DNA of 40,950 nt from a virus, in the IMG/VR virus record IMGVR_UViG_3300034685_000103, positions 1-40,950 of that record, one strand, 5' to 3'. A program made the position numbers and the translations under genes. The notes beneath the pieces were generated by a model. That model saw only the letters and a program-made list of their open reading frames with translations. It was not told where the DNA came from and searched no databases. Positions 15,729-40,950 of this stretch are shown piece by piece. The number at the start of each line of letters is the position of its first letter. Within the stretch, counting starts at the first letter, position 1.

Positions 15729-16110
15729 CTTGCTTTTCCTTGTCGATATATTCTACAACTACCTTGAATCCATCTTTATCCGCCGATAAATCGACTTTGT
15801 CTTTCCTTCCCCAGTCCTCAAAATACTTTCTTTCAAGCCACCACGCTGCTGCTTGCCAATTCCCTTCTTGCGCTGCACGTTGAATCAATGCGACATTTCT
15901 TGCAATTGCGTCTTTTTCTGCCTTTTTCACAGTCTCGTAAAATTCTCTTTTCATGCCGCTTTTAGCTTTCTCACCTTCGTTTAACCAGCGAAACCACGTC
16001 GAATCATCTATTCCGAGGATAGGGGGTATATCTTTTATATAATTTCCTGCAGAAACCAGTTTAAACGCTTCTTTGATAAGTTCTTTTGTTAATTTCGATT
16101 TTCTCGGCAT
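15712..16110 (-). CDS. terS: Terminase small subunit
   Basis: A 132-residue DNA-recognition subunit. The N-terminal helix-turn-helix is visible at about 5-45 (AGNYIKDIPPILGIDDSTWF and RWLNEGEKAKSG). A helical oligomerisation segment follows (ETVKKAEKDAIARNVALIQR) and then the WQAAAWWLERKYFEDWGR segment typical of this terminase family. It binds the packaging site and stimulates TerL. The gene overlaps terL and sits just after the glycosyltransferase gene. Confidence 0.9.
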   Translation of the reverse strand: MPRKSKLTKELIKEAFKLVSAGNYIKDIPPILGIDDSTWFRWLNEGEKAKSGMKREFYETVKKAEKDAIARNVALIQRAAQEGNWQAAAWWLERKYFEDWGRKDKVDLSADKDGFKVVVEYIDKEKQDGSES

Positions 16111-16116
16111 TTCTTT

Positions 16117-16986
16117 TCACCTCTTCTTATATCTTCCAGAAACAATCTTCGGAACGCAATGTTCCCAATCTATAACATGATGTAATCGATAGTATACATT
16201 CCCCATCGCATCTATTTTAACACACGACGGCGCAAGCATAACTGTATAAAAGCTCTTCACATACGTTCCTAAATCCTTGTACGCCTCTGTCAACCCGCCT
16301 GCATTTGTCTGTGTAGGCAATTGCGCAACAGTCACGAACGCAACACTAAAAATCAACTCTCCCCTAATCCCATGAAACACATACGCATTCACATCTTCAT
16401 TGATTCGCCCCATGAACTCCATCTTTCTATACGTTCTGAAAAAGAAAGAATTCATCGCTTTTCTTTTGAAACCCTTCAGCATAAATCCATCAATACCCCC
16501 GATAAAATCTCCCGTCTGCGCATATGCAATTGTCAAAGCTCCAGTTTCATCCAAAACATCAAATGTTACTTCAAACAATTTATCTAAATTTTTCACCTGA
16601 CGTCTTTTTCGAATCACAGTTTCACTTTCGCCTACAATAAATAACTTTTCATAATTGATACTTTGATAATCATCATCCAAAACAACAAAATGTGTCAATC
16701 CTAAATCTTCAGCAATCTTGAAAATATAGTTTCTTGCATATACAACAACATTTCTTTCATTCAAGTTGTCCATCATATCAAACATTTCTTTTGCTTCATC
16801 TTTTGAAAATACAATCACTTTATTTTTGAATTTCTCTTTGTATTGTTCTAACGTCTCATCTTCATCATCACATATTATATACCAGTCACCAGTATATCTC
16901 CCTTTTTTCAACATATTGATAGTTTTGACTCTGTCTGGCCTTCCATGCGAAAGAATGAAAACCGCACTTTTCCTATTCTTCTTCAT
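16117..16986 (-). CDS. Glycosyltransferase of the TET-associated (TAGT) type
   Basis: A 289-residue GT-A-like enzyme. It starts with AVFILSHGRPDRVKTINMLK, has a nucleotide-sugar-type segment DWYIICDDEDETLEQYKEKF, then ARNYIFKIAEDLG followed by FVVLDDDYQSI, where the acidic DDD cluster is the expected metal/nucleotide-sugar site. I recognise it as the TAGT family found in phages beside ParB-like genes and terminases. The family is predicted, and in some cases shown, to add sugars to modified DNA bases. I chose ATG 16986, which overlaps the ParB-like gene by 14 bp. No TET dioxygenase is visible in the window, so the substrate is unknown. Confidence 0.8.
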   Translation of the reverse strand: MKKNRKSAVFILSHGRPDRVKTINMLKKGRYTGDWYIICDDEDETLEQYKEKFKNKVIVFSKDEAKEMFDMMDNLNERNVVVYARNYIFKIAEDLGLTHFVVLDDDYQSINYEKLFIVGESETVIRKRRQVKNLDKLFEVTFDVLDETGALTIAYAQTGDFIGGIDGFMLKGFKRKAMNSFFFRTYRKMEFMGRINEDVNAYVFHGIRGELIFSVAFVTVAQLPTQTNAGGLTEAYKDLGTYVKSFYTVMLAPSCVKIDAMGNVYYRLHHVIDWEHCVPKIVSGRYKKR

Positions 16987-17728
16987 AATCTTCACCGTAC
17001 AACTCCGCAACTCTTTTTGAAAACCTCACAAATCCCTTCGCAATCGCATCTTCAAAATCTACAATAACAAGCGCAAGTTCTTCAAACATTTCTTGTGTTT
17101 CTAGACTTGCAAAAGCATAATAATCTGCAATCTTTGCAAAATTGAACTTCAAAAATCGACTCGCAGCTAATTTCAAAAATTCTTTGACTTTATCATCACA
17201 ATTTGATTTTTCTATCTTCTCCAAAAGCTCAAAATATTTTTCTTTCTCAACAAGTTCTTCAAGCTTCACTCCTTCTTTCGGCTCATATTGAACCGCATCC
17301 ACTTTGTACGTATACGGGTTCATCTTTTCTGCGTCTACTCCTACAAGCATTTTGCTAACTTCATCCATATCAAAACCTGTCAATTCTATTTCTTCCGAGT
17401 CCAAATCAAACTCTTTCAACAATTCTTTCAATTTTTCCTCATCCCAATCCCCGGTAATTTTGTTCAACGCAATATTCAAAGCCTTTTCTTTCTTTTCATC
17501 CAAATCTACAATCACCGCGTCAACTTCTTTTACCCCCAACTCTTTCAACACTTTTACTCTCTGATTACCCCCAACAACATGCATATTTCTTTTATTGATT
17601 ATAATAGGTTCTACATAACCAAACTCTTCTAAACTTTTTTTAAGCTTTTTGAAAGTTGACTCATCTATTTTTCGAGGATTATAATCAGGCAACTTAATCT
17701 CGCTTATATTTATTTTTTCTATTTCCAT
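16973..17728 (-). CDS. ParB-like N-terminal-domain protein
   Basis: A 251-residue protein. Residues ~1-90 form a ParB/sulfiredoxin-like domain: INISEIKLPDYNPRKI, VEPIIINKRNMHVVGGNQR and RVKVLKELGV, where the GGNQR box is the conserved nucleotide-binding segment. The remaining ~150 residues are helical and not recognised. Free-standing ParB-like proteins are common next to phage terminase and TAGT genes, and some of the superfamily are CTP-dependent switches or nucleases. There is no ParA here, so a partition role is unlikely. The gene overlaps the glycosyltransferase gene, which suggests shared work on phage DNA. Confidence 0.82.
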   Translation of the reverse strand: MEIEKINISEIKLPDYNPRKIDESTFKKLKKSLEEFGYVEPIIINKRNMHVVGGNQRVKVLKELGVKEVDAVIVDLDEKKEKALNIALNKITGDWDEEKLKELLKEFDLDSEEIELTGFDMDEVSKMLVGVDAEKMNPYTYKVDAVQYEPKEGVKLEELVEKEKYFELLEKIEKSNCDDKVKEFLKLAASRFLKFNFAKIADYYAFASLETQEMFEELALVIVDFEDAIAKGFVRFSKRVAELYGEDYEEE

Positions 17729-17751
17729 AATTTACCCCCTTTTTTAAAAAA

Positions 17752-17790
17752 AAGACGCTTCCCTTCTTTCCTTAAGGTTTTTTGCGTCTT
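17752..17790 (-). terminator. Rho-independent terminator after the truncated ParB gene
   Basis: Arms AAGACGC (17752-17758) and GCGTCTT (17784-17790) form a 7-bp stem; a smaller CCTT/AAGG stem lies inside the loop. On the minus strand it is followed by a run of eight T. It separates the 52-codon ParB piece from the full ParB-like gene. Confidence 0.75.
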
Positions 17791-17794
17791 TGTG

Positions 17795-17953
17795 TTATAG
17801 TCTGACAATATTGTTCTCATCAATGATTACAGGATCGATAAATCCGTGTTTTTTCAATACTTTAGCAAGCCTCTCAGCTGCTTCATCATTGAAACGTGGA
17901 TTCTTCTCCCATAGCCTTAATTTATCAATATCCATTTTTTCAATGAATTGCAT
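17795..17953 (-). CDS. Truncated ParB-like domain (52 residues)
   Basis: The frame reads MQFIEKMDIDKLRLWEKNPR and continues to IDPVIIDENNIVRL, then stops. This is the first half of a ParB N-terminal domain; the expected next residues (the G-N-x-R nucleotide-binding box) are missing. Start ATG 17953 has a GGGG site. The stop lies 4 bp from a terminator. It may be a gene remnant or a mini-protein that competes with the full ParB-like protein encoded next. It is the first gene after the late-region promoters. Confidence 0.65.
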   Translation of the reverse strand: MQFIEKMDIDKLRLWEKNPRFNDEAAERLAKVLKKHGFIDPVIIDENNIVRL

Positions 17954-17975
17954 AATATTATCCCCTTTTGCTAAT

Positions 17976-18047
17976 ATTATATCATTTTTTTTACACGTCA
18001 ACGATGTCAAAAAGTTCATTCAATTTCTTATATCTTATACAATTATA
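17976..18047 (-). promoter_or_regulatory. Two extended -10 promoters at the start of the late unit
   Basis: TGATATAAT occurs twice on the minus strand, with TATAAT at 17981-17976 and 18047-18042. Both have the TGn extension. Upstream -35-like elements (TTGACG and CTTGCA) are spaced 14 and 16 bp, so recognition probably leans on the extended -10. They lie between the early terminator and the packaging genes. Confidence 0.55.
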
Positions 18048-18083
18048 TCACATTTTTTGCAAATGCAAGTATTATATAAAAAA

Positions 18084-18107
18084 AGAAGAGACTTTTACAT
18101 CTCTTCT
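18084..18107 (-). terminator. Rho-independent terminator ending the early unit
   Basis: Arms AGAAGAGA at 18084-18091 and TCTCTTCT at 18100-18107 enclose eight bases. On the minus strand the stem is followed by a long T run. It stands after the 48-codon gene and before the late promoters. Confidence 0.8.
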
Positions 18108-18123
18108 CTTTTATAATTGTTTT

Positions 18124-18270
18124 TTAGTTTTTCTCTTGAGCCCATATAGAATAACACACTGCTATTCTTTGCTCTTGAGTTTTAAACTCTTTATTGATAT
18201 TTGGATCTCGTAAACATCTTGAAATAAATTCTTTTTTGCTCTCCGTTGGTCTCGGCTTTGGTAAAGGCAT
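18124..18270 (-). CDS. Small conserved phage protein (48 residues)
   Basis: The frame starts MPLPKPRPTESKKEFISRCL and ends QRIAVCYSIWAQEKN. The pattern P-K-P, E-FI-RC, then R-AVC-S-W matches a short phage protein family usually encoded near packaging or prohead genes. Start ATG 18270 follows GGGAGGTG at good spacing. The two conserved Cys might bind metal. It is the last gene before the terminator at 18084-18107. Function unknown. Confidence 0.75.
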   Translation of the reverse strand: MPLPKPRPTESKKEFISRCLRDPNINKEFKTQEQRIAVCYSIWAQEKN

Positions 18271-18285
18271 ACTTTCACCTCCCAG

Positions 18286-18495
18286 TTATTCACTCATTGA
18301 CGCTATTATCGCAGTTTTAAGTTCATCGATATAATTATAAGCCATTTGCAACTCTGTTATTTCTTTTTTCAATTCATAGTCTAACTCTTTTGAATAAAAA
18401 TATGTTCTCATTAATTCTAATTCTTTGAATTTATATTTGAGTTTATCGTTTAACGTTTGTAAGATTAAATCTAATATTTTTATTTCCTCTCTCAT
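18286..18495 (-). CDS. Small helical protein, unknown function
   Basis: A 69-residue, charged, probably all-helical protein (MREEIKILDLILQTLNDKLK at the start). It overlaps the preceding gene by 4 bp (ATGA) and has a GGAGG site, so it is translated as part of the early operon. No recognised family. Confidence 0.6.
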   Translation of the reverse strand: MREEIKILDLILQTLNDKLKYKFKELELMRTYFYSKELDYELKKEITELQMAYNYIDELKTAIIASMSE

Positions 18496-18917
18496 TTTCC
18501 TACCTCCTCAAATATTTTTGCTAGTTCATTGTATTTTTTAAATAGCTTACTAAAATTCGTGCTTTCTAACGCATCCCCTCCCAAACTAATATTGTAATCA
18601 TCAACGTAAATCATAAGTTCATGAATTGTGAAATCACATCTCTCTACTAACGTATCCAATTCAATTGTAAAACAAAATAAGTATTCATTGATTTCGTTTT
18701 TGATAAATAAGTGTAATAGTAAATCTCCATAAAATTCCATACTATCACTGTCAAACTCAACTCTCCAATTTTCCGGTATTTCTATTCCTTGAAAAAACTT
18801 TTCCATATTTGCTATATGATTCTTTATTATATCTTTAGAATTATAATTCCTTCTAACTTCCCTCTCGAATATCTCCCATTCTCCATTTTCTTTAACAATC
18901 TCAAGTATGTTTTTCAT
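18492..18917 (-). CDS. Early protein, paralogue family B member 1
   Basis: A 141-residue protein with no known motif. It is a clear paralogue of the next upstream gene (18914-19351): both begin MKN followed by IVKENGxW, share a helix with HIANMEKFF or HIRDMKKFL, and continue with IPENWRVEF or VPEEWKIEF. A more distant third copy is at 27431-27853. The gene overlaps its neighbours by 4 bp on both sides. Function unknown; likely cytoplasmic. Confidence 0.65.
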   Translation of the reverse strand: MKNILEIVKENGEWEIFEREVRRNYNSKDIIKNHIANMEKFFQGIEIPENWRVEFDSDSMEFYGDLLLHLFIKNEINEYLFCFTIELDTLVERCDFTIHELMIYVDDYNISLGGDALESTNFSKLFKKYNELAKIFEEVGK

Positions 18918-19351
18918 TTCATAACCTCCTCAATTAATTTCTTAAATTCTTCACGTTTTGATATAAGTTTAGTAAAATCAATTTTTCCTTTGTCTCTTTC
19001 CGAAGCTTCACTTTCTAACTCAATTTTATAGTTGTTTAGATGTATTATTATATCATGAATCAAAAACACAGCTTTATTTTTACGCTCATCAAGTTCGATC
19101 CCGAGATAAAGAATATTTTCGTTTTTCTCATTTTCAACAATAAGATCTATAAACATATCGTAGAAAAATAATTCAGTATAATAATTGAATTCAATTTTCC
19201 ATTCCTCAGGTACTTGTAACTCACTAAGAAATTTTTTCATATCTCTAATATGCTTTCTTTGAGTTTTTTCAGAATGATAATGATGCTCAATCTCTTTCTC
19301 AAACTTTTTCCAATCTCCGTTTTCTTTTACTATATCAAACGCATTCTTCAT
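18914..19351 (-). CDS. Early protein, paralogue family B member 2
   Basis: A 145-residue acidic protein, tandem paralogue of 18492-18917. Its shared pattern is an N-terminal IVKENGDWKKFEKEIEHHYH helix, the VPEEWKIEF strand, then alternating strands and a C-terminal helix (FTKLISKREEFKKLIEEVMK). The start overlaps the upstream stop (ATGA), with GGAGGTGGGG in front. Function unknown. Confidence 0.65.
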   Translation of the reverse strand: MKNAFDIVKENGDWKKFEKEIEHHYHSEKTQRKHIRDMKKFLSELQVPEEWKIEFNYYTELFFYDMFIDLIVENEKNENILYLGIELDERKNKAVFLIHDIIIHLNNYKIELESEASERDKGKIDFTKLISKREEFKKLIEEVMK

Positions 19352-19740
19352 TTCCCCACCTCCAATATTCTTTTAAATTCCTTTCCAAGATTTTCTATTT
19401 TATCTATGTTTTCCAAAATATTTGCAAGCTGTTCTATATTCATTTTTTCATCTTCAATATATCCATGAAATCTATAATTTGCCATAAGACTATAAGAATC
19501 GTTTCTATCCCATGTTTCTACAAAGCAACTGTTAAAAACCGGATCTTCAGTTATCTTTCCGTAAAATCCAACGTAATAATCAGGATAACCTGTAGTTTTG
19601 TTTACAACTTTTTCAAATATTACTGTTACCTCGTTCTCATCTAATTTACTTGCCCCTTTTCTAAATTTCCAGCCATCAAGTTTCTTTTCTAATTTTTCAA
19701 CTTCTTCAATTATTTGTTTCCTCTTTTCCTCAATATTCAT
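19348..19740 (-). CDS. Early protein, paralogue family C member 1
   Basis: A 130-residue protein. It shares with 20492-20872 and 22422-22775 a layout of N-terminal helix, strands ending in a V/I-x-FYG segment (YYVGFYGKITEDPVF here) and a C-terminal helix of the form LANILENIDKIENLGKEFKR. The layout suggests a small alpha-beta fold. Function unknown. Start ATG 19740 has a GGAGGTGAG site. Confidence 0.62.
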   Translation of the reverse strand: MNIEEKRKQIIEEVEKLEKKLDGWKFRKGASKLDENEVTVIFEKVVNKTTGYPDYYVGFYGKITEDPVFNSCFVETWDRNDSYSLMANYRFHGYIEDEKMNIEQLANILENIDKIENLGKEFKRILEVGK

Positions 19741-19764
19741 ACTTTCTCACCTCCATCATTATTT

Positions 19765-20079
19765 TCATTTATTTTCTTGAATAATCTTCCTATAGTCCAA
19801 ATCATAATTTTCTTTTGATAGTACCAGCCACATGATTGAATATCCAGCTATATCTTTTAATGTATCATCCAATGACTCGTTGTTTAACTCTGAATTATTC
19901 AATACATGATTTTTCAAACGTTCCAATTTATCTGACAATCTTATAAGAATTCCAAGACTTCCAAAAGTTAGCAGGTTCTTTGCCCCATAATCCTTGTTTT
20001 TCTTTATTAGCAGCTGCTCAATCTCACTAATAACTGCATGTAAAATTTCTTCAAATTCTTTGTTCTCATTACTTTCCAT
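19765..20079 (-). CDS. Nmad1-like (DUF1599) protein
   Basis: A 104-residue helical protein with the pattern KKNKDYGAKNLLTFGSLG, then RLSDKLERLKNHVL, ESLDDTLKDIAGYSIMWLVL. This KN-DYG / DK-RL / ES-DTL-D-GY order fits the nucleotide-modification-associated domain 1 (DUF1599), seen mainly in phages and linked by gene neighbourhood to modified nucleotides. The acidic positions resemble those of helical nucleotide pyrophosphatases, which is inference. Together with the ParB-like and glycosyltransferase genes it hints at altered DNA bases. Confidence 0.72.
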   Translation of the reverse strand: MESNENKEFEEILHAVISEIEQLLIKKNKDYGAKNLLTFGSLGILIRLSDKLERLKNHVLNNSELNNESLDDTLKDIAGYSIMWLVLSKENYDLDYRKIIQENK

Positions 20080-20100
20080 ATTCTCAGCTCCCTTTTCTAT

Positions 20101-20499
20101 TTAAATTTTATTCCAAGTTATATCTTTCCATTTATCCGTTTCCTTCAACTTCTCGTCTAACTCAATGTTCTGTAATAATAATTCTTTGTTTTGCTTTTTC
20201 AACTTTTCTACTTCTTCAACTAACGCTTTATTACTTTCCATTAGCTTTAAATTTTGCTCTTGATAAAATAGTATATTTTTGTCTGCCTCGTTTAAAATAT
20301 TTTTCTGATACCGCTCTATTAGTTTTTCTCTGAGATCATTACACAAATCTTGGAAGTATTCTTTTTCTTGACGTAAATTTTTATTTTCTTCTAACAGAGC
20401 TTTGTTTTTCTCTATAATTTTTGACTTTTCTACCAACTTATCAGCTAACATCTCCGCAAACTCATCTAAAAATTCATTAAAATCTTTGCCATTACTCAT
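20101..20499 (-). CDS. Coiled-coil early protein
   Basis: A 132-residue protein consisting almost wholly of coiled coil (heptads from ~25 to ~120; for example NKALLEENKNLRQEKEYFQD). The C-terminus is KWKDITWNKI. ATG 20499 is preferred over an upstream GTG because it is properly spaced from GGGGAGTG. It resembles the coiled-coil protein at 21377-21919 in both arrangement and position between family C genes. Function unknown. Confidence 0.6.
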   Translation of the reverse strand: MSNGKDFNEFLDEFAEMLADKLVEKSKIIEKNKALLEENKNLRQEKEYFQDLCNDLREKLIERYQKNILNEADKNILFYQEQNLKLMESNKALVEEVEKLKKQNKELLLQNIELDEKLKETDKWKDITWNKI

Positions 20500-20872
20500 T
20501 TTTCTCACTCCCCTTTATTATCTTTTCAAACTTGCCACTTAGTTTGTCTACATCGCATAAACTTTCTAAAATAGCTCCAATCTTCTCAAATGCTATTTTG
20601 CCATCGTATTTAAATTCATAACTTCCACCTCCATTATAATTTATCTTGATTTTACAGCTTTTAAAATTATGTATTAGTTTATAATTTCCATAAAAGATTA
20701 TATAATTTTTCATATTCGATTTTCTGTTAAACTCAATCCAATACTCTCCTGTTCTAAAATCGTTTAAATATTTTTCAATTATAATCCAATCTTCATCGAT
20801 TGTCTTATAAATCTCTTCTAATCTTTGTTCAATGAATTCTTTTGCTCTTTTGATTTGTATATTGCTCATCAT
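20492..20872 (-). CDS. Early protein, paralogue family C member 2
   Basis: A 126-residue protein. It has an N-terminal helix (IKRAKEFIEQRLEEIYKTID), a middle strand NMKNYIIFYGNYKLI with the family FYG, and a C-terminal helix GAILESLCDVDKLSGKFEKI that matches members at 19348 and 22422. Two adjacent ATG codons can serve as the start; the second (20869) is better spaced. It overlaps the coiled-coil gene by 8 bp. Function unknown. Confidence 0.62.
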   Translation of the reverse strand: MMSNIQIKRAKEFIEQRLEEIYKTIDEDWIIIEKYLNDFRTGEYWIEFNRKSNMKNYIIFYGNYKLIHNFKSCKIKINYNGGGSYEFKYDGKIAFEKIGAILESLCDVDKLSGKFEKIIKGSEKNE

Positions 20873-20875
20873 TCC

Positions 20876-21352
20876 TCAATACCTCCTTATTTCTTTGCAA
20901 TTTCCTCTTAATAGCTTCTTAAAATTCTCTAAAAATGAAACTGAATGATTATCAAAAAATTCTCTATCCCATTTTTGTTCATTCGTTGGATCTTCAACTA
21001 AATAATAAGGTCTTGACTTTTCAAATCCATATCCTCTCGCTAATTCCGGATAATAATCTAAATATCCTTCTTGACAAGAAAATCCAAATACTATATTTCC
21101 AGTCTTTTTAAATTCCTGATAATCTTCAAGAGTTAAACAATCATGTTCAGGATTATATCTTTCAATTGTATGAAGTAATTTTTTCTGCTCTCTTGTAATT
21201 AGCCACCCATTAGTTTCAATTATAGAAGTTATATTTTCAAAATATCCGTTTAAATCGAATTTTTTTAAATCTTTGATAGACACTTCTATTTGAAAGTATG
21301 GATCTCCTCTACATTTCTCTTCTAAAAATTTCATAAACTTTGTTCTTGTCAT
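20876..21352 (-). CDS. Early protein of unknown function
   Basis: A 158-residue protein with no recognised family. Visible features are an N-terminal basic helix (MTRTKFMKFLEEKCRGDPYF), a Tyr-rich middle (CQEGYLDYYPELARGYGFEK) and a basic C-terminus (LLRGNCKEIRRY). I chose ATG 21352, since an ATG nine bases upstream touches the GGGAG site. It lies in the early operon between family C and coiled-coil genes. Confidence 0.55.
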   Translation of the reverse strand: MTRTKFMKFLEEKCRGDPYFQIEVSIKDLKKFDLNGYFENITSIIETNGWLITREQKKLLHTIERYNPEHDCLTLEDYQEFKKTGNIVFGFSCQEGYLDYYPELARGYGFEKSRPYYLVEDPTNEQKWDREFFDNHSVSFLENFKKLLRGNCKEIRRY

Positions 21353-21376
21353 CGCTCTCATCTCCCTTTTGATTTT

Positions 21377-21919
21377 CTAAATCCATTCAATCCCCTTTTC
21401 TTTTAATCTTTCTTTCATTCTCCTATTTTCTAATTTGTATCTTTGGCTATTATCTTCAAGATAACTATTCTCATTTAATAATGTATCATTCAGTTTTTTT
21501 AATCTCTTTATTTCTTGTTCTTGCTCTTGATTTTCTTTCATCAATTCTAGATTTTGATTTTCATACTGCATAATAACATCGTTTAATTTCTTCTTTTCTG
21601 CTTCCAAAGAATCTATTATTTTTCCGTAATGCTCATTTCCGCTTTTTAATTCTTCGATTTTTCTATGCATTGCTTTGTTTTCTCTTTCTAAAATTTTGTT
21701 TACTTCAATTAACTCCCATAATTCATCAAAGCACTTCTTTTTTTCTTTTTCTTTATCGTCAATTGTTATAATATCGCCTTCTATTTCTTCTTTTAATAGC
21801 TCATTTTCTTTAATTTCCTTTGCTAATTTTTTTCTTAAGTCATAGATTATCGTTTTCATGTTATAACAAGCTTTTTTATATCTTTTCAATTCTCTATCTT
21901 CATTCTTCACTACTTGCAT
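21377..21919 (-). CDS. Long coiled-coil early protein
   Basis: A 180-residue protein predicted to be one long coiled coil. A basic N-terminal 20 residues (DRELKRYKKACYNMKTIIYD) is followed by heptads to about residue 165 and a basic tail (NRRMKERLKEKGIEWI). It lies directly downstream of SSB. Function unknown; a structural or tethering role is possible. Confidence 0.58.
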   Translation of the reverse strand: MQVVKNEDRELKRYKKACYNMKTIIYDLRKKLAKEIKENELLKEEIEGDIITIDDKEKEKKKCFDELWELIEVNKILERENKAMHRKIEELKSGNEHYGKIIDSLEAEKKKLNDVIMQYENQNLELMKENQEQEQEIKRLKKLNDTLLNENSYLEDNSQRYKLENRRMKERLKEKGIEWI

Positions 21920-21940
21920 TTCCCTTCACCTCCTTATTTT

Positions 21941-22402
21941 TTATCTCAGCGGCGACTCATCATCTAAATCATCCAACAATCCCTCAAAAAGTGGATCGTT
22001 TTCAAACTCGTTTTCTTTTTCAACTACTTTGTTTTTAGTTTTTATTTCTTCATTTTGCTTTTCTTCTGCGTATTCTTCTGTGTTTTCTTTTTTCTTAGTT
22101 TCAAAGTTCTTGACTACATTTGCGATTATCTTTGGCTTTGAATGATTTACTCCGTTTCTATCTTGCCATTTATCTATTTGTAAACTCCCTTCAACTAACA
22201 CTAAATAACCTTTGTGAACATAACTTAAAATATAATCAGCAGTATTCCCAAATGCTACACAGTCAAAGAAGTCTGCTTCGTTGGATTTATAATCTCTGTT
22301 CACCGCTATTGTAAAGTTTACAAATGTTTTCCCTTCACCTGAAACTCTTCTTTCTGGCTCTTTTGTCAACCTACCTGCCATAATTACTTTATTAAAGCTC
22401 AT
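21941..22402 (-). CDS. ssb: Single-stranded DNA-binding protein
   Basis: A 153-residue SSB. Residues 1-105 form the OB fold (FNKVIMAGRLTKEPERRVSG, FVNFTIAVNRDY, ADFFDCVAFGNTADYI, GYLVLVEGSLQIDKWQDRNG). The C-terminal tail is acidic (LDDLDDESPLR) but lacks the classical DDDIPF tip and ends in Leu-Arg, so docking of host partners may differ. It protects ssDNA during replication and Bet-mediated annealing. It is next to the helicase operon. Confidence 0.93.
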   Translation of the reverse strand: MSFNKVIMAGRLTKEPERRVSGEGKTFVNFTIAVNRDYKSNEADFFDCVAFGNTADYILSYVHKGYLVLVEGSLQIDKWQDRNGVNHSKPKIIANVVKNFETKKKENTEEYAEEKQNEEIKTKNKVVEKENEFENDPLFEGLLDDLDDESPLR

Positions 22403-22421
22403 ACTTTCCCCTCCTTAAAGT

Positions 22422-22775
22422 TTATCCTTTTAGAGTTTCTACAAATTCATTTGCAAATCTTTCAAATTTACCAACACTTTCCAAAATCTTTGAAACTTCG
22501 TTTAAACTAAATTCCATATTAAAAACCATACTTGAATATCCGTTTTTTGTTCTAATCGTTATTCCACATTCATCAAAAATTTCTTTTTCATCACAGTTTC
22601 CATAAAAAGTTACAACAATATCATCTTTTTTGTATTGAAGCCATACTGAAAATCTTGGAGTTCGACTATCCCAAGAACTTAGTGTTTCCTCATACTGCCA
22701 ATCTTTGAACTGATTTACTATCTCTTTTATTTCTTCTTTTATTTCTTTTTTTCTTGCCAAATATCCAAATCCCAT
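22422..22775 (-). CDS. Early protein, paralogue family C member 3
   Basis: A 117-residue protein placed between DnaB and SSB. It shows the family C signature: DDIVVTFYGNCDEKEIF in the middle and a C-terminal VSKILESVGKFERFANEFVE helix like those at 19348 and 20492. It shares base 22775 with the DnaB stop region, so translation is coupled to the helicase. Being inserted among core replication genes suggests, without proving, an accessory role there. Confidence 0.62.
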   Translation of the reverse strand: MGFGYLARKKEIKEEIKEIVNQFKDWQYEETLSSWDSRTPRFSVWLQYKKDDIVVTFYGNCDEKEIFDECGITIRTKNGYSSMVFNMEFSLNEVSKILESVGKFERFANEFVETLKG

Positions 22776-24067
22776 TACACTTTCCCCTCCTCTAAAAATT
22801 CAAGTGTATTTTTTCTAAAAATCAAGTTCACGACGCCCGTAGGTCCGTTTCTGTGTTTTGCTATACTTAGTTCTGTTTTGCTATCATTTTTATCCTCCTC
22901 TCCTTTTTGCTCTAAGTAATAGCCTTCCCTGTACAAGAACCAGACGTTATCTGCATTTTGCTCAATTTCTCCTGAGTCTCTTAAATCGGCTAAATTTGGT
23001 CTTTTATTCGTTCTATGCTCAACTTCTCTGTTTAATTGAGCAATAGCCACGACTGCAACGTCCAGTTCTCTTGCAAGTATTTTCAAGTTTCTACTTATTT
23101 CCCCCATTTCAATCGCTCTGTTTTTGTAGACACTTTCAGTATTAAGAAGTTGTAAGTAGTCAATATACACTATTTCAATGCCTTTGCTTTTAAGCGTTTT
23201 TGCTTCAACAATCATGTCGCTAATGGTTATGTTTGACTTGTCTATTATAAATAGTTTGTCACGTTTCTTTTCTAAAAAGTCCGCAGCTGCTATTATTTTT
23301 TTTATTTCACTTTCGTTTAATTGCCCCTTATTAATTTTTGACGCTTCTACACCGCTGTATATTGAAAAAAGACGTTTATAAAGTGAATTTTTTGACATTT
23401 CTAAAGAAAAAATTAACACTGGTATGTCTTCTTTTAACTGTCTAAGCGCAAAATTTAACATTGCCGCGGTCTTCCCAACAGCTGGCCTGGCTGCTAATAT
23501 AGTTAGTTCTGTCTTATGAAAGCCGTCTGTAAGCCAGTTTAGACTATTGTAGCCCGTAGTAATTTCTATAAGACTTTGCCCACTTTCAACTTTCTGTTTT
23601 TTCTCAAGAATATTGTCAACAAGTTCTGTTATATCGTTTCTCTCTTCATTTTCGACGTCAACGATACTTCCAAGTTTTTCACTGTATAAACTTGCAAGCT
23701 GTTCAGGTTTAAACTCTCCACGACTTAGCATATAATTCATTTCTGCAACTGCACTTTCCAGTTTTCTCTTTTTGCTAAACTCACGAAGCTGCTCTAAAGA
23801 TAAAGTAAAGTCCAAATATAGTGGCGTGACTTCCATCAATTGTATAAAATACTCTTGACTTACCCCCTTCGTTCGTGTTATAATATTCATAAAAGAAGGC
23901 TGCTTTCCGTTAAGAAAAGCCCCATTCATCGCTTGGAATATCTCCTGATTTTTTCTATCAATGAAATCATCGGGAGATATTTTTTTGATCGCTTCACCAA
24001 AAAGTTCAGGCTTTGCTAATATGGAAGCTATTATTATTTGCTCTGCTTTTTGCTCTATAATATTCAA
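22775..24067 (-). CDS. dnaB: Replicative DNA helicase (DnaB family)
   Basis: A 430-residue DnaB-type helicase. The N-terminal domain (~1-110) carries IIASILAKPELFGEAIKKIS. The RecA-like domain has Walker A ARPAVGKT at 193-200, SLEMS at 221-225, and Walker B YIDYLQL at 301-307. IAQLNREVEHR and PNLADLRDSGEIEQNADNVW are the family arginine-finger and sensor regions. It unwinds DNA 5' to 3' as a hexamer. The start is a TTG overlapping the upstream TGA; the next ATG lies inside the N-terminal domain. The DnaD-like gene upstream probably loads it. Confidence 0.95.
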   Translation of the reverse strand: MNIIEQKAEQIIIASILAKPELFGEAIKKISPDDFIDRKNQEIFQAMNGAFLNGKQPSFMNIITRTKGVSQEYFIQLMEVTPLYLDFTLSLEQLREFSKKRKLESAVAEMNYMLSRGEFKPEQLASLYSEKLGSIVDVENEERNDITELVDNILEKKQKVESGQSLIEITTGYNSLNWLTDGFHKTELTILAARPAVGKTAAMLNFALRQLKEDIPVLIFSLEMSKNSLYKRLFSIYSGVEASKINKGQLNESEIKKIIAAADFLEKKRDKLFIIDKSNITISDMIVEAKTLKSKGIEIVYIDYLQLLNTESVYKNRAIEMGEISRNLKILARELDVAVVAIAQLNREVEHRTNKRPNLADLRDSGEIEQNADNVWFLYREGYYLEQKGEEDKNDSKTELSIAKHRNGPTGVVNLIFRKNTLEFLEEGKV

Positions 24068-25101
24068 ACTTTTTCACCGTCCCTTAGTTTTCTACACCAA
24101 GAGCTAAATTCTTTAAATAGCATCTGTGAATCTTTATCAACTCCATATTTTTCAGCGTATTCATTGAATCTCTTTTTTGCCATATATTCATTTCCGGTAA
24201 GTTCAATAATGTAGTCAATTTCAAGGTCATCAAAGAATTCTTGAATATTATACTCTTCTTTCTGTTTTTGTTTTGCCTTCATTTTTCTAATAACATTTGG
24301 ATCTTCGTTTAAGTAGCTTTCAAACTTAGTTCCAAAAAGCGTTACAGGTCGTAGGTAAATTTCTTCTTTTTCACCTTTCCATAATAGCGTTTTATTATCA
24401 ATTACTTTCTTAAAATCTTCAAGCCCAAATCCTTCATTCCATCTGGCTTTAATAAGCTCTCTTGTTTTTGAAATATCGTGTTTATAATGCTTTCCAGCTT
24501 TTTCATTCAAATATTCGATTATTTCTTTGTAAGGAATTTGCTCTGTTTTTTGATTTTTCTCGTTCTCGACTATATATGTATTATTATTTCTATTATTATT
24601 ATCTCTATTATTAATTACATTAGAGTTTTTAATGTTCAAGTTCTCTAATTTCTTATGATCCAGTTCTTTATTTTTTAAAGAACTAGGATTTAAGTACTTT
24701 GGTTCATTTTCTTCTGAATTAATTTGCTTCAAATACTCTCGCCTATTAGCTTTCCCTTTTTCAAGTATATTTCTAATTAAATTCTCATCGCTTGTTATTC
24801 TAAAAAATTTCTTAGCAGGAACTCCATTAATAGACGTTTCTATCAGTTTTAAATCAGATAGAATTTGCAATGATTTTTTTTGTTGAAAATAAGAGTATCC
24901 TGTGTTTAGTTCAATCATTTTAGAAGTTTCGTAAAACCAGCCATCATTAGTTTGCCCAAGTTCTTCAAAATAACTTTGTTTTGAGATTAGTTCTCCAAAT
25001 ATAAGAGCTGTTTGAGGTCCCAAAGCATTTATAAGATATTTATTCACTACTATACTTCCACCATCACTTTTTAATAGATCTGCTAAAATACTCAGTGACA
25101 T
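24064..25101 (-). CDS. Replication initiator / helicase loader (DnaD-like, Phg_2220_C domain)
   Basis: A 345-residue protein. Residues ~1-120 form a winged-helix domain (IVVNKYLINALGPQTALIFG, TGYSYFQQKKSLQILSDLKL). An Asn-rich linker follows (~165-185). Residues ~190-270 match the conserved phage C-terminal domain: EIIEYLNEKAGKHYKHDISK, RWNEGFGLEDFKKVID, YLRPVTLFGTKFESYLNE. Such proteins bind the origin and recruit the helicase encoded next. The winged-helix part is a paralogue of the genes at 25103 and 26199. Confidence 0.85.
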   Translation of the reverse strand: MSLSILADLLKSDGGSIVVNKYLINALGPQTALIFGELISKQSYFEELGQTNDGWFYETSKMIELNTGYSYFQQKKSLQILSDLKLIETSINGVPAKKFFRITSDENLIRNILEKGKANRREYLKQINSEENEPKYLNPSSLKNKELDHKKLENLNIKNSNVINNRDNNNRNNNTYIVENEKNQKTEQIPYKEIIEYLNEKAGKHYKHDISKTRELIKARWNEGFGLEDFKKVIDNKTLLWKGEKEEIYLRPVTLFGTKFESYLNEDPNVIRKMKAKQKQKEEYNIQEFFDDLEIDYIIELTGNEYMAKKRFNEYAEKYGVDKDSQMLFKEFSSWCRKLRDGEKV

Positions 25102-32939: not shown

Positions 32940-33163
32940 TCTATATATAATTAGTCATAAACGATTATTGAAACGCTTACAGCTCGTTTTACAAAGAGGA
33001 TAAAAATAACATAAAACTGTTATAAATAGTGTGTTTCAGCGTTTTCAAGCTATTTTTGGAGTGTTTTCCAGAAAAAAGTAAAATTAGAAGTCTCATTAAA
33101 TGCGGATTTCAGAAGTTGAGAAAGATGGATATATATAAAAGAAAAATAAAACTGATATAAAGA
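32940..33163. repeat. Intergenic repeat element, copy 3 (partial)
   Basis: From 32940 to 32999 it matches copy 1 at 7478-7537 without gaps at the key blocks: TATATAATTA, CGCTTAcAGCT and TTTTACAAAGAGG. Farther right ACTGTTATAAATAGT (33016-33030) matches the copy 1 dyad, and CTGATATAAAG near 33150 matches the distal end. It lies in the ~700-bp gene-free region between the late terminator and promoter P1. No reading frame is seen. Confidence 0.65.
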
Positions 33164-33186
33164 TAGAAATTCTAAAATATTGAGAT

Positions 33187-33436
33187 AATCTAATTTTGAA
33201 CCTCTTTGTAAAACGCTCTATATTCAATTTTTTCTTTGCCATCAATATAATTATATTTAGAAATCAATACAGCTCAAAATACAACGAGGTTGTAATTCAC
33301 TAATAATCAGTATTATAGAGAAGTCTCATAATTTTAGAAATTTTATTAAAAGTTTAATCGCTAAAATACTTATAACTAGTATGTTTTAAAAATCATAAAA
33401 TATAAAAGAGATATAATGATGATATAAAATAAAAAA
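33187..33436. repeat. Intergenic repeat element, copy 2 (inverted to copy 1)
   Basis: Centred on the A/T palindrome AATATAATTATATT at 33245-33258. The left arm, read on the minus strand, ends TTTTACAAAGAGGTTCAAA, as in copy 1. The right arm has CAGCTC, then ACAACGAGGTT, then CACTAATAATCAGTATTA-AGAGAA, a dyad ACTTATAACTAGT at 33368-33380, and GATATAAAATA next to the late terminator. The whole arrangement is collinear with the reverse complement of copy 1 over 200 bp. Confidence 0.68.
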
Positions 33437-35100: not shown

Positions 35101-37719
35101 TTAGTATAAAAAATATTCTACAAAAATGTACGCTTGAACACGTGCCAAATTGTTTGCTGAAATATTAATTGTCTCTCCATCACTAATAGCAATATTACTT
35201 ACGTCTAATTTATTTCCGGTAGTTACTGCCCAACTGCTTGTGCCTTTTGAAACTGTTATCGTTGCTGTATTTGCCGATTCATAAATTCCAAAATCAATCG
35301 GATGAGTATGTGGTGGAATAGTAACTGAATGAGTATGCCCATCTAATGTAATTTCATGATTATGGCTGCTTATTACAACCGAATGACTATGTAATGATGT
35401 CCCACTAAAAGTTGCACTTGTTTGCCCAGACCAACTACCGCCTGCGTTTGACGTTGTTGTTGTTCCACCTCCTGAACTTGAACTTAAAGTTGTTCCACCT
35501 CCGCCCCCAACTGTTTTTGAATATGCCCTGAACTTTTCTGTCTTTACTATTATTCTTGCTATTCCGCTTGAAACATCTGTGCCATCAGCATTTTTTGGAA
35601 TATAAATAGGTATCGATAGTGAATAGCTTGAATCAATTTGGTCTGCCATTGAAATCGTATATATTTGCCTAATCCCTTGCGAACTCAGTAATAATTTTGA
35701 ACTTTGCCCTTGAATTTCCACTTTTCCATTACTAATCTTTAAACCCGCCGTTGAGTCTGATAAAGCATTATAACCCAGAGCTATTGTGTCAGGAATTGTT
35801 ATCTTCTGCTCTGCTACTAATTCTAAAGTCTTTACTAATTGAGTCGCTTCTATCGTTCCAGTTTGTATGAAATCTCCGTGAATAAGTGTAAAGCCCTTGT
35901 CAATCGCGGGTATAGCCACTTTTCCAGCAACGAATCTAACTACTCCAAGTGGATAATATGTATAGCCTCCAATCTCGCCTTTTTCCATTTCTGCATTAAA
36001 CGAGATTATATTTCCATTGTTTAGATTTTCTGTATCGTTTTTATCGATACGAATTGACATAAAATAATCTTTTGTTGTAGTTTCAATCTTATTTCCAGCA
36101 CTTACTTTGTAAGAAATATCTTCTGCAACTTCTTGGAATCTGAACTCTGTCCAATCTATTCTTTCCAGTGTTGGAACTATTTCTAATCCATGAACTTGAT
36201 AATTTCTATCTTCTGAACCGATTCTCACATACTCGTTTTCACTTCCATAAAACTGTTTTTGAACTAATAGTTCATGCCTTTCTAAAGCTGTTCTCGCAGT
36301 TTGAACTGAGCCATTCAAAAGCAAAGCTTCTTCTCTAATTTTCTTTTGTTGTTCTAAAAGTTTTACATACATTTCGTCTATTATTGAGTTTACAGGCATT
36401 CTTTCAAACGTATTTGAAAACGTTATTTTATTATACATTCCAAGCTTTAAATCGTATTCAAAGTCAAGCACTCTAACATCTGTGTCAATCGCTTGACTTT
36501 TATCAATTAATCTAACTGCATCTCCAATGTTTACACTTAAATTTATTTGCTGTCTGTCTTGTTCACTAAAATAAGCAAAGTTAATTGAATACGTTATTTT
36601 AGCTTCTTTATGTTGTTCTAAATAGTTATTTGCTTCCGTAATAAGTTGATTCTTTGCTTCATCATATTGAGTTTGCGTTATATAAGCCATTAAAATGTAA
36701 GTTCCACCTGTAAAATCAATATCGTAAATGTCTTTATTTGTGAGTTGCGGATAATAAACTATTCTCGTTGTAGTACATGAATTGTATTTTATTCTAACTT
36801 CTTGAACTTGCTCAAAGCCCTTAGTCATAAACAAAGTGCATTGATTTGCTTCAAGTATAGATAAATCAATTGTTTTGTCAATATCAATGTAATTATAGTT
36901 TTCTTCATCTATTGTTATTTGTCCCCATGAAACTACGCTTCCATTCAAGTTATGCAACTTTACATCGAACTCTTTTATTTGCTCTATAACTCCATATTGC
37001 TCAATAACGCTTGAATCGATGTATAATACTGGATTATCTTCTATTTTTTTATTGACAAAATCATAGTTTACAGGTCTCAGCTCGTTGTAATAATAATTTT
37101 CAAGAACATCTAAATTATCGGATTTGCCTTTTGGATATAATCTCGTTATTATATTCGAAGTATCAATTTCTTTTGTGATAGCGTTTGTATTGCCACCAGC
37201 TTGAATAAATTGCTGTGGAATATCCAGTCCCACTCGAGTTTTGATATAAATGTTGTAATCATTGAATTCATGCTCAGCTCCAAAAGCTTCAAGAAACTTT
37301 GTAAGAGCCGATAAAACATTATCACTGCTATAATCAACTGCTTTTAAATTGTCTTTTAAGCTTGCATCTAAGTTATCAATCAGATTAAATCCAAAGCCAG
37401 TTAAATAACTCTCCAAAGCTGTTTTATTTGCTTCATATCCGATTATTCCAAACTGGTCAGCTCCATCGATTTCTCTCAAGAATAGCTTTTTTGATAAATC
37501 ATAAATTCTATGATATGCTTTATAACTATCTTTTTCTTTCACAATATTGAAAGTGAAATCAGTATCGTTTATCTTAGTTTTCAAAACATCGTTTTGCTGA
37601 ATGTTTTGTTGCGTTTTAAATGTCAAGAAAAATACTCCAGAGAGCGAACGTGTTAGCTTGATTTCAGATGGAGCTAATTTCTCAATGAATTCATTGTTTC
37701 GATATATGAAAAAATCCAT
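35101..37719 (-). CDS. Tail tip / tail-associated protein with HxH-type tip
   Basis: An 872-residue protein. The N-terminal ~400 residues resemble the phage minor structural (Tal/prophage tail endopeptidase) family: FFIYRNNEFIEKLAPSEIKL, FLEAFGAEHEFNDYNIYIKT, IVYYPQLTNKDIYDIDFTGG. The next part looks like a fibre (WTEFRFQEVAEDISYKVSAG, ATQLVKTLELVAEQKITIPD). A Gly/Ser/Thr-rich stretch (~735-770) leads to four HxH motifs at 777, 786, 795 and 804, an exact 9-residue period. In T4 gp37 such motifs bind iron in the receptor-binding needle. It probably trimerises at the tail tip; its job relative to the DGR adhesin is unclear. Confidence 0.82.
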   Translation of the reverse strand: MDFFIYRNNEFIEKLAPSEIKLTRSLSGVFFLTFKTQQNIQQNDVLKTKINDTDFTFNIVKEKDSYKAYHRIYDLSKKLFLREIDGADQFGIIGYEANKTALESYLTGFGFNLIDNLDASLKDNLKAVDYSSDNVLSALTKFLEAFGAEHEFNDYNIYIKTRVGLDIPQQFIQAGGNTNAITKEIDTSNIITRLYPKGKSDNLDVLENYYYNELRPVNYDFVNKKIEDNPVLYIDSSVIEQYGVIEQIKEFDVKLHNLNGSVVSWGQITIDEENYNYIDIDKTIDLSILEANQCTLFMTKGFEQVQEVRIKYNSCTTTRIVYYPQLTNKDIYDIDFTGGTYILMAYITQTQYDEAKNQLITEANNYLEQHKEAKITYSINFAYFSEQDRQQINLSVNIGDAVRLIDKSQAIDTDVRVLDFEYDLKLGMYNKITFSNTFERMPVNSIIDEMYVKLLEQQKKIREEALLLNGSVQTARTALERHELLVQKQFYGSENEYVRIGSEDRNYQVHGLEIVPTLERIDWTEFRFQEVAEDISYKVSAGNKIETTTKDYFMSIRIDKNDTENLNNGNIISFNAEMEKGEIGGYTYYPLGVVRFVAGKVAIPAIDKGFTLIHGDFIQTGTIEATQLVKTLELVAEQKITIPDTIALGYNALSDSTAGLKISNGKVEIQGQSSKLLLSSQGIRQIYTISMADQIDSSYSLSIPIYIPKNADGTDVSSGIARIIVKTEKFRAYSKTVGGGGGTTLSSSSGGGTTTTSNAGGSWSGQTSATFSGTSLHSHSVVISSHNHEITLDGHTHSVTIPPHTHPIDFGIYESANTATITVSKGTSSWAVTTGNKLDVSNIAISDGETINISANNLARVQAYIFVEYFLY

Positions 37720-38647: not shown

Positions 38648-38735
38648 CTCCTTTTTTAATTTCTTTGTTTGTTATCCAAATTTCTTGTTTTGTATCATCA
38701 TCGAACTCGATTATTATTCTTTTTATTTTCAGCAT
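38625..38735 (-). CDS. Possible 36-residue protein after the reverse transcriptase
   Basis: The frame reads MLKIKRIIIEFDDDTKQEIW and continues to KKGDEKGESK. It overlaps the RT gene by 38 bp and the next gene by 23 bp. The GGAG site is close to its ATG. Tight overlaps and a sensible composition support it, but it is short and without a family. Confidence 0.4.
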   Translation of the reverse strand: MLKIKRIIIEFDDDTKQEIWITNKEIKKGDEKGESK

Positions 38736-39729
38736 ATCTCATCTCCAGATTTTTAATGTGTTTCTGATACAAACGATAAGAATCACAATGCTTTAGCCAG
38801 CCCTTATAGCTTTGAATACTACAATTATCTTTGTATGAAATATTTTTGTGATTGCTAATATTTTTCATTTTATGCTTCATTCGCTTTTTCGTCCCGGTTC
38901 TTAACAATGTAAAATCTTTAAAAATTCTGTATCCTAAAAAATCTATGCCTCTAACATTTGTTGGAAACACTTGCCAATTAGATTTTATTTCAACTCTTAA
39001 GTTTTCTCTAAAATACCAGTCAAAATGTCTTTTTAGCCAATGTAAATATTTTTTATTTTTATGTAGTATAACAATATCGTCCATGTATCTAAAATAATAC
39101 TTTATACGCAAAGTTTGCTTACAGTATCTATCAAATTCAGTTAAATAATAATTAGCAAAGTATTGAGACAAATAATTTCCAATCGGAATTCCTTTATTAA
39201 ATGAATCGATTATTAAATCTAACAGCCATAGCAAATCTTTATCTTTGAATTTCCTTCTCAATTTGTCTTTTAAAATTTTATGATTTATACTTGGATAATA
39301 CTGCTTTATATCCAGCTTCAAACAATACTTCGTGTTATATTCATCTTTCAAAGCTTCTTTAACTCTTTTTAATCCAAAGTGTATTCCTCTATTTGGAATA
39401 GAGCTATATGTATCATAGATAAACATTTTTTCAAATATAGGCCCTATAATTTGCAATACTGCCCATTGAATAATTCTGTCGGGATAGTAAGGTAATTTGG
39501 ATATCAATCTTGTTTTGCCTTTATCGATTTTCTCAAAAACTTCATAATTAGATACTTTATATGTTTTATTGATTAACATCTTTTGAATTTCTTGGCAATA
39601 ATACTTTGGATTTTCATCGACCATTTTTACTTCTTTGTAGAATGTTTTGTTTTTCCTTGCATTAGAATGTGCTAAAAGTAAATTATTAATATCAATGATT
39701 TGTTCAAATAAATTTCCGTATCTTTTCAT
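38698..39729 (-). CDS. DGR reverse transcriptase
   Basis: A 343-residue enzyme. Start ATG 39729 (MKRYGNLFEQIIDINNLLLA) follows AAGGAGA and matches the usual DGR RT start; an upstream TTG start is less likely. Palm motifs: LKLDIKQYYPSI with Asp140, IPIGNYLSQ at 181-189, and YMDD at 215-218. The IGxxxSQ motif in place of QGxxxSP is the hallmark of DGR RTs and is linked to adenine-specific misincorporation. It copies the template RNA at 39842-39950 into mutated cDNA that replaces the variable repeat at 40034-40142. There is no maturase or endonuclease domain, so it is not a group II intron enzyme. Confidence 0.96.
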   Translation of the reverse strand: MKRYGNLFEQIIDINNLLLAHSNARKNKTFYKEVKMVDENPKYYCQEIQKMLINKTYKVSNYEVFEKIDKGKTRLISKLPYYPDRIIQWAVLQIIGPIFEKMFIYDTYSSIPNRGIHFGLKRVKEALKDEYNTKYCLKLDIKQYYPSINHKILKDKLRRKFKDKDLLWLLDLIIDSFNKGIPIGNYLSQYFANYYLTEFDRYCKQTLRIKYYFRYMDDIVILHKNKKYLHWLKRHFDWYFRENLRVEIKSNWQVFPTNVRGIDFLGYRIFKDFTLLRTGTKKRMKHKMKNISNHKNISYKDNCSIQSYKGWLKHCDSYRLYQKHIKNLEMRYAENKKNNNRVR

Positions 39730-39841
39730 AAATCTCCTTGCTTGTTGTACTTTCCACAATTTCGATTTTTAAGTCTACTGTTGTGGATTTCTCAATTTTT
39801 CTGTTTGACCCAGAGGTCTGGGAAGAAAAAGGCGCAAAAAC

Positions 39842-39950
39842 AAGTAAGGTGAGAGCCGATATTCCGATTCGAATTAGACGGAGTATTATTCAGATTCAAA
39901 GTGAACAGTCCAGCTTGCAATCCATTATTCCAATTCGTGCTCGAATGAGC
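39842..39950 (-). repeat. DGR template repeat (TR)
   Basis: 109 bp aligned without gaps to the variable repeat at 40034-40142 (offset 192): 84 identities and 25 differences, 24 of them at A of the coding sense. In the target frame the TR reads nine AAT codons, for example NWNNGLQAGLFTLNLNN, the typical codon for adenine mutagenesis. It lies between the target gene and the RT, in the same direction. A small C/G-rich hairpin (CCCAG/CTGGG, 39809-39822) sits in the spacer before the RT and may belong to the template RNA. Confidence 0.96.
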
Positions 39951-39996
39951 GACTTACTTTTTCTCCCCTTGTTTTTAATTCACTTTCAAAAAACTC

Positions 39997-40028
39997 ATTG
40001 AGATTTGCAAATACCGTCAAATCTCAAT
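39997..40028 (-). promoter_or_regulatory. Inverted repeat downstream of the variable repeat (DGR hairpin)
   Basis: ATTGAGATTTG (39997-40007) and CAAATCTCAAT (40018-40028) form a perfect 11-bp stem with a 10-base loop, five bases beyond the end of the VR. It overlaps the last codons and the stop of the target gene. In BPP-1 a hairpin or cruciform at this place is needed for efficient retrohoming. The minus strand after the stem has TTTTTT, so it may also weakly terminate. Confidence 0.75.
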
Positions 40029-40950
40029 ATAAGAAGCAAGGCGAGAGCCGAAACCCCGACCCGACCCAGACGGAGCACCAGCCAGACTCAAAGCGAACAG
40101 CCCAGCCTGCAAGCCATGATCCCAATACGCGCTCGAACGAGCTATTCTTGTACCAGTATTCACCCATGTATAATCGCTCAAATAAGTTGATGAAGAGCCA
40201 TTGAAGCTATATTCAGGAATTAATCCCCAAGATATTCTTTTATCCGTTGATTTTATATATCCATAAGTATAAGTCGTAACATCCGTTCGTGGATAAAACT
40301 CTTTCATATTTGCGGGCGTTGCTACATCATTTTCAATATCAAAATATACTCCTTCTGCAGTCTTTAAAAATCCGTCTAAAAACTCCCAAACGTTTCCCCA
40401 CAAGTTTTCTATCCAGAGGAATCTAAACGGATAAGTCACAGTTTGCCCTGTTTGAAAAGTAGCTCCGTTTTCAAGTGTAGTTAGTGTAACTTCTCCATCA
40501 GATTGAGAACCTAAACTCAAAGTATGACCAGTATTTTGACTGTGATTGTCCGTTCCAGAATTTAAATTTGTTATTCCTTGACTAAGAGATGATTGCGAGT
40601 TTAAATTTCCATATTTCAGAGCAAATAATAATCCGAGTAGTCCATAGTCGTATCCGTTTTTCAATCCATAATAGGTTCCAGCGTTTGGAGTTCTATTTTT
40701 TGCAGCAGTTCTAAACTGATCGATAGTTTTCGAAGTTGTAGGTTGAACAAAAGGAATCGAACGTAATCTATTGTCAATATCTACATATCCTTCAAAAGCT
40801 CCCAATCTTCTTTTACAAACTTTTCCATTGTAAATAAAAGCAGGATGGAGTTCATATCCAATCTTGTAATCCCAACTTAGCCATGTTTTCCAAGTATTGC
40901 CTTCTAAAGCCACTTTGTAATAAATTGGTGGAATTTCTACTTTGTAATCT
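40017..40950 (-). CDS. DGR target protein (variable tail adhesin), C-terminal part with variable repeat
   Basis: This is the main part of the 347-residue target, continuing from 237-1. The segment LWGNVWEFLDGF, followed by a G/S/A-rich C-terminus, resembles the formylglycine-generating-enzyme-like C-type lectin fold used by DGR variable proteins such as the BPP-1 tropism determinant. The last ~40 residues are encoded by the variable repeat at 40034-40142 (for example YWDHGLQAGLFALSL). The stop is TGA at 40019-40017. The fold holds variable side chains on a ligand-binding surface, so the likely job is binding variable host receptors at the tail tip. The family assignment rests on the DGR context and the local motifs, and the function is inferred. 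Confidence 0.88.
   Translation of the reverse strand, partial: DYKVEIPPIYYKVALEGNTWKTWLSWDYKIGYELHPAFIYNGKVCKRRLGAFEGYVDIDNRLRSIPFVQPTTSKTIDQFRTAAKNRTPNAGTYYGLKNGYDYGLLGLLFALKYGNLNSQSSLSQGITNLNSGTDNHSQNTGHTLSLGSQSDGEVTLTTLENGATFQTGQTVTYPFRFLWIENLWGNVWEFLDGFLKTAEGVYFDIENDVATPANMKEFYPRTDVTTYTYGYIKSTDKRISWGLIPEYSFNGSSSTYLSDYTWVNTGTRIARSSAYWDHGLQAGLFALSLAGAPSGSGRGFGSRLASYIEI
40034..40142 (-). repeat. DGR variable repeat (VR)
   Basis: The recipient copy at the 3' end of the target gene. Of 30 template adenines (coding sense) 24 are changed: 19 to G, 3 to C and 2 to T. The single other change is T to G at position 40065. All nine AAT codons of the template are altered, giving Y, D, H, S, A and G residues. 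The terminal block GGCTCTCGCCTTGCTT on the coding strand is the likely homing initiation side. The tract is visibly more G/C-rich than the rest of the genome because of the A to G changes. Confidence 0.96.
40824..40950. repeat. Contig-end overlap, right copy
   Basis: Right-hand copy of the exact 127-base overlap with bases 1-127. Joining the two copies restores the reading frame of the DGR target gene, which supports circular closure. Confidence 0.93.

Follow-up and report, generated by a model that had tools for sequence, protein, structure and literature searches.

The window, that is, the whole 40,950-nucleotide stretch of viral DNA analyzed here, carries a diversity-generating retroelement (DGR) whose reverse transcriptase (RT) belongs to a large clade that probably reads the adenines of its template under a two-state rule. 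An adenine is copied as G when the base copied just before it is G, and partly so when that base is C, while after A or T it is randomized. The template would hold a layer of directed recoding beside a layer of diversity, and A/G differences before G would be silent. With BPP-1-like and clostridial RTs the outcome is the opposite: an A before G mostly stays A. As a DGR, the element adds an unremarkable new member to a known type (AAT-rich, Avd not detected, RT-17 RNA), and the new part, judged from sequence comparison, appears to be the context rule. A working phage DGR, together with a clade-specific reading of two kinds of adenine by the RT, is the overall explanation that we consider likely.

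Anatomy of the Retroelement

The DGR comprises the following elements:

38698–39729, minus strand: DGR reverse transcriptase, 343 aa from the ATG at 39729
39738–39823, minus strand: divergent RT-17 RNA (Rfam RF03020), directly after the TR
39842–39950, minus strand: template repeat (TR), 109 bp, intergenic
39997–40028, minus strand: hairpin with an 11-bp stem, just after the VR, overlapping the target stop codon
40034–40142, minus strand: variable repeat (VR), 109 bp, target codons 307–343

TR and VR align without gaps at an offset of 192. They differ at 25 positions, 24 of them TR adenines and one a T>G change; in a DGR, at least 75% of such differences are expected at TR adenines. The target gene is open and carries the VR at its 3′ end; the intergenic TR lies near the RT gene. 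Of 30 TR adenines, 22 precede A or T and 8 precede G or C; 24 are changed in the VR (19 A>G, 3 A>C, 2 A>T). The TR is AAT-rich, with 9 AAT and no AAC. Apart from the VR, no site in the genome resembles the TR, and since the best ungapped match elsewhere agrees at just 42–48% of non-A positions, the pairing is far from chance. Over all TR/VR loci, T>G, the change that the window carries once, is also the commonest non-adenine mismatch, with 14 cases in the subclade of the window and 43 beyond the clade.

The RT contains IGNYLSQ as motif 4, (I/V/L)GxxxSQ, and YMDD as the YxDD motif. It matches PHROG 1423 (E 5e-124), its best PDB match is the BPP-1 enzyme bRT (E 3e-38, residues 12–331), and on the RT tree it groups with DGR RTs that own a TR/VR pair. 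The most likely start is the ATG at 39729, which an AAGGAG ribosome site precedes by a few bases, rather than the TTG at 39759, which falls within the structured RNA.

A preliminary description had listed a complete DGR, with an RT bearing YMDD and IGNYLSQ, a 109-bp TR and a 109-bp VR at the 3′ end of a lectin-like gene. All of these parts are in place, the profile searches agree with its assignment of the RT, and its inventory holds, although it made no mention of the RNA after the TR, the undetected Avd or the directed share of adenines. Its ungapped alignment with 24 of 25 differences at A also stands. Not all of the adenine changes represent random diversity; part of them are directed.

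A search with PF22296 did not find Avd in the window or in 17 related phage records; the same search finds Avd in BPP-1 and two BPP-1 relatives. An unrelated accessory protein may be present.

Genome Closure and the Target Protein

The contig ends, when compared, proved identical over 127 bp, which implies a 40,823-bp circle or a terminally redundant genome and closes the target gene across the junction to 347 aa:

1–127, no strand: left copy of the terminal direct repeat, identical to 40824–40950
40824–40950, no strand: right copy of the terminal direct repeat, identical to 1–127
1–237, minus strand: target gene, 5′ part, with its ATG start at 237 (residues 1–79 when closed)
40017–40823, minus strand: target gene, 3′ part, C-type lectin tail protein, PHROG_5302
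230–1288, minus strand: Dit-like distal tail protein, directly upstream of the target
35101–37719, minus strand: prophage tail endopeptidase/antireceptor-like protein, downstream of the DGR

The longest linear target reading frame with a start codon begins at an internal GTG and encodes 298 aa, so that, as the preliminary description had it, the true start at 237 is visible only on closure and 49 residues are otherwise lost. The adjacent distal tail gene that it named likewise matches Dit.

An AF2 model built on a 50-row alignment of relatives covers the 310 residues, of 347, that are contiguous in the window (pLDDT 86, pTM 0.87). In a Foldseek comparison with the PDB, the significant matches were all to TaqVP, the Thermus aquaticus DGR variable protein (PDB 5vf4; E 3.5e-11, probability 1.00), at about 17% identity. 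Five Mtd variants came next (probability 0.38–0.96), and TvpA followed lower, with low probability. The predicted model thereby bears out the earlier assignment to the C-type lectins. TaqVP is not known to be a tail protein of a phage. The surroundings of the DGR are of siphophage type, and the combined evidence supports the target as a predicted C-type-lectin tail protein encoded between the Dit-like and tail endopeptidase/antireceptor-like genes. It probably binds a receptor.

Comparison of phage records with positions 8000–25000 of the window gave no near DNA relative. A RusA-like Holliday junction resolvase (7545–7946; PHROG E 9e-8) lies among the tail genes, outside the replication module. 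Two AT-rich stretches, 7314–7553 and 32971–33435, are mostly without open reading frames and have several inverted repeats in common (98 nt at 73%, 52 nt at 77%, and others of 42, 35 and 33 nt), which surround a motif like TTTTACAAAGAGG. These stretches are possibly origin, regulatory or packaging elements.

Structured RNA after the Template Repeat

In the window, the RT-17 RNA consists of a hairpin, GACC-TCTG-GGTC (39807–39818), followed by an A-rich stretch and a possible long-range helix pairing 39781–39786 with 39754–39759. The match to RF03020 is full-length and scores 34.3 bits, below the gathering score of 40.4 (E 8.6e-5 over 601 bases); five relatives (L004, L007, L156, L337 and L366) pass that score. 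Across 41 relatives, the four-pair hairpin with its compensatory changes, the A-rich stretch and the long-range helix are conserved. Of the cells, 97.3% are paired, against 83.8% when shuffled and 24–48% when slid, with 55 double changes. Our own model R1 also matches the RNA of the window, a match that is not independent because its training sequence L001 nearly equals the window. The structure was considered as a new family and rejected as such, since Rfam already holds it as RT-17. Its place directly after the TR makes it look like the scaffold of the DGR template RNA. The Rfam RNAs RT-14, Phage_DGR and RT-17 each occur in different DGR RT clades (loci L108, L086 and L066 and the five above); BPP-1 carries RF03022, and two clostridial DGRs carry RT-14.

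The hairpin after the VR was rejected as a clade-wide homing signal. It is present in the window but not conserved in the clade, where the mean stem is 4.7 against 4.6 in shuffled sequences.

Activity in Nature

Two IMG/VR phages from other samples, L001 and L002, carry RTs 99% and 97% identical to that of the window. Between these two, the ~1.2 kb of aligned sequence upstream of the VR shows no difference. The TR is the same in L001, L002 and the window, yet each has a VR of its own, distinguished at TR adenines. The same TR with unlike VRs in close relatives from other samples indicates that the DGR has recently been active and homes in nature. We give hardly any credence to a decayed or inactive element, for which the missing Avd gene could be cited; Avd is equally undetected in the 17 related records, the RT is open with YMDD intact, and VR alleles vary over an identical TR and flank. 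Differences between L001 and the window cluster on the Dit side upstream and in ~300 bases around the VR start, with the middle of the target nearly identical, a pattern of mosaic recombination around the target.

Dependence of the Outcome on the 3′ Neighbor

The starting question was the excess of A>G (19 of 24 adenine changes) in the window. Of 375 loci collected, 293 yielded TR/VR pairs, in which template adenines were classed by their 3′ neighbor and by their outcome in the VR; A|G and A|C denote a template adenine directly before G and before C. In the neighborhood of the window, A becomes G in 96% of cases before G and 80% before C, and A before A or T is changed in ~50–67%, with mixed products. 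Within the clade of the window (93 RT clusters), A|G is read as G at 607 of 648 sites (436/453 in a 57-cluster subclade, 171/195 in the rest), against 29 of 280 outside it; the sites in these counts are homologous and not fully independent. A before G is kept as A in 79% of cases in BPP-like DGRs and in 91% in clostridial DGRs.

Four-fold degenerate sites act alike. A|G becomes G at 64 of 65 such sites in the subclade, which are supplied by 37 RT clusters, and at 46 of 50 in the rest (110/115 for the clade); outside, the count is 11 of 83, with 68 unchanged. Counted by RT cluster, all are G in 36 of 37 clusters of the subclade, and all are A in 18 of 28 outside. Because every outcome is synonymous at these sites, protein selection is excluded at A|G.

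The rate of A|G to G is 96, 96 and 97% over the 5′, middle and 3′ thirds of the TR. Where different VRs share one TR, A|G sites within the varying stretch are always G in 26 of 31 cases in the clade and always A in none, and outside the clade they are always A in 22 of 30 and always G in none. TR pairs that differ by A/G before G illustrate the same point. Both VRs carry G in 93 of 94 cases in the subclade (the remaining one had N), compared with 3 of 10 outside. Template A and G are interchangeable before G in this clade. A/G differences between TRs before G or C reach ~12.7% (arithmetic on counts), against ~2% for C/T in the same context, and this several-fold excess fits silence before G or C.

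Six named phages outside the sample in which the rule was found, Psychrobacillus phage Perkons and five crAss-like phages, read A|G as G at 37 of 40 sites; they were not placed on the RT tree. As a control on the method, natural VRs of the BPP-1 clade show raised A>C before C (CAC 26%), reproducing the published bias of bRT (PMC12875486).

Phylogenetic Distribution and the Lineage of the Window

The trait follows the RT tree. On a tree of 173 clusters, it requires 5 label changes against 27 when shuffled, and on a mixture-model tree of 54 RTs a single branch (SH-aLRT 93) sets the clade apart from the remaining RTs. Residues distinguishing the clade from other RTs, such as the aromatic residue after SQ, S70 and D273, were considered and set aside, as the candidates are many and confounded with descent.

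In the RT cluster of the window, G is found at 6 of 8 A|G and 17 of 18 A|C sites. Across the window lineage, A before G or C becomes G in 23 of 26 cases, against 22 of 68 before A or T (p 1.3e-6). The TR of the window has two A|G sites within the VR pairing, a GAG near the 5′ edge and an AAG in a run, and these are not always G. With so few A|G sites, the rule in this lineage rests mainly on A|C (17/18). With that mainly A|C support, 8 of the 30 TR adenines, those before G or C, would nearly always yield G in the lineage of the window. Elsewhere in the clade, A|C to G is weaker, at 49% for isolated A and 0/3 in one crAss phage. L212 and L213, which form a lineage with GSYLSQ within the clade, have lost the A|G effect (2 of 10 sites) but keep A|C directed (18 of 20), a case in which the two effects come apart naturally.

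Proposed Mechanism and Alternative Explanations

We propose that the DGR RT copies the TR transcript, which bears the RT-17-type RNA on its 3′ side, into cDNA, and that this cDNA would replace the VR, changing roughly twelve codons on the variable face of the C-type-lectin tail-tip protein. In the clade of this RT, the base just copied, the 3′ template neighbor, would decide the fate of every template A. If that base is A or T, the RT would err promiscuously (A>N), giving diversification. After G it would almost always insert C, so that A is read as G, and after C it would mostly do the same in the subclade of the window. The template would then hold two kinds of adenine, diversifying and directed.

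The RT itself is favored as the cause because the trait follows the RT tree. The almost pure A>G outcome at A|G is also what inosine would give, if a host or phage adenosine deaminase edited the TR RNA before G or C, inosine were read as G, and RT errors made up the rest. Such editing is unlikely. It needs a second enzyme, and the trait tracks the RT tree across phages whose relatives live in unlike hosts (Clostridia, Psychrobacillus, the crAss-like phages). Furthermore, no deaminase is known to act on so short and loose a context. Much less probable is that G is simply the base that the target protein needs. Several of the sites do encode conserved Ala, Gly or Arg, and selection could account for some share at nonsynonymous A|C sites, but the four-fold degenerate A|G sites behave in the same way (64/65), isolated A before T is not directed, and selection would act against a wrong base in the template unless it were misread.

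Equally improbable are fixed TR/VR differences, at positions that cDNA never overwrites and where the VR keeps an old G. The 3′ ends of TR and VR in BPP-1 do differ in this fixed way (IMH versus IMH*). However, the A|G sites in question are flanked on both sides by positions at which alleles of one TR vary, they are as directed in the middle of the TR as at its ends, and the effect depends on the 3′ neighbor. The excess of A>G might also reflect an AT-rich phage whose AAT codons meet a bRT-like preference for C opposite A in AAU. The preference is reported for bRT (PMC12875486), and the 9 AAT of the window TR would suit it. This reading, to which we assign slightly less weight still, was rejected as it accounts for part of A before T alone. 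Direction is seen at A|G and A|C rather than at AAT, where roughly half of the sites are changed, to a mixture of bases; clostridial DGRs with AAT/AAC-rich templates keep A before G (91%). Template slippage, proposed for bRT, was likewise rejected for the subclade. It predicts A>C before C, where the subclade shows A>G, and so it does not carry over.

Comparison with Known Systems

The BPP-1 DGR (mtd, avd, TR, brt; RF03022) shares with the window the order target–TR–RT, A-specific TR/VR differences, a C-type lectin target and an RT homologous over 320 residues. BPP-1 has Avd, an AAC-rich TR and the Phage_DGR RNA, whereas in the window Avd is undetected, the TR is AAT-rich and the RNA is of RT-17 type. 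Natural BPP-like VRs mostly keep A before G (79%), and the clade of the window reads A before G or C as G. In E. coli, bRT shows raised misincorporation of G opposite A before C (A>C), just 0.08% G before G, and a preference for C opposite A in AAU (PMC12875486).

The crAss-like DGRs (cr50_1, cr52_1, cr53_1, cr55_1 and C0526BW15; LMMB of PMC7290462) and that of Perkons resemble the window in the P1 hairpin after the TR, in IGNY[LI]SQ where the pattern was found, and in A|G>G (37/40). They differ in virion types and targets, and A|C>G is weaker. Clostridial genomic DGRs are also DGRs with AAC/AAT templates, but mostly carry GNYTSQ, keep A before G in 91% of cases and have RT-14 RNA in the two of two tested.

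Earlier work described DGR substitutions as "essentially random", against strong enzymatic bias (DiGReF, PMC3521204), and a survey found that about half of replaced adenines become G (PMC6642488). The tentaclin paper noted A>C as an infrequent change of the second A of AAC. We did not find the context rule in the openly accessible DGR literature; subscription literature (e.g., Handa 2018, 2021) could hold an earlier report.

Implications

A near-deterministic, clade-wide rule whose outcome is opposite to that of bRT-like clades would mean that error specificity evolves. The two groups would provide matched enzymes for studying why DGR RTs err only at A. The rule can be tested with the assay already published for bRT. 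In the crAss LMMB paper, every TR adenine was counted as A-to-N, giving 4^28 variants (PMC7290462). Such 4^n counts of diversity would be too high, by up to 4^8 (~65,000-fold) for the TR of the window if all eight sites preceding G or C are directed. The design of the template may thus partly fix the output of the DGR.
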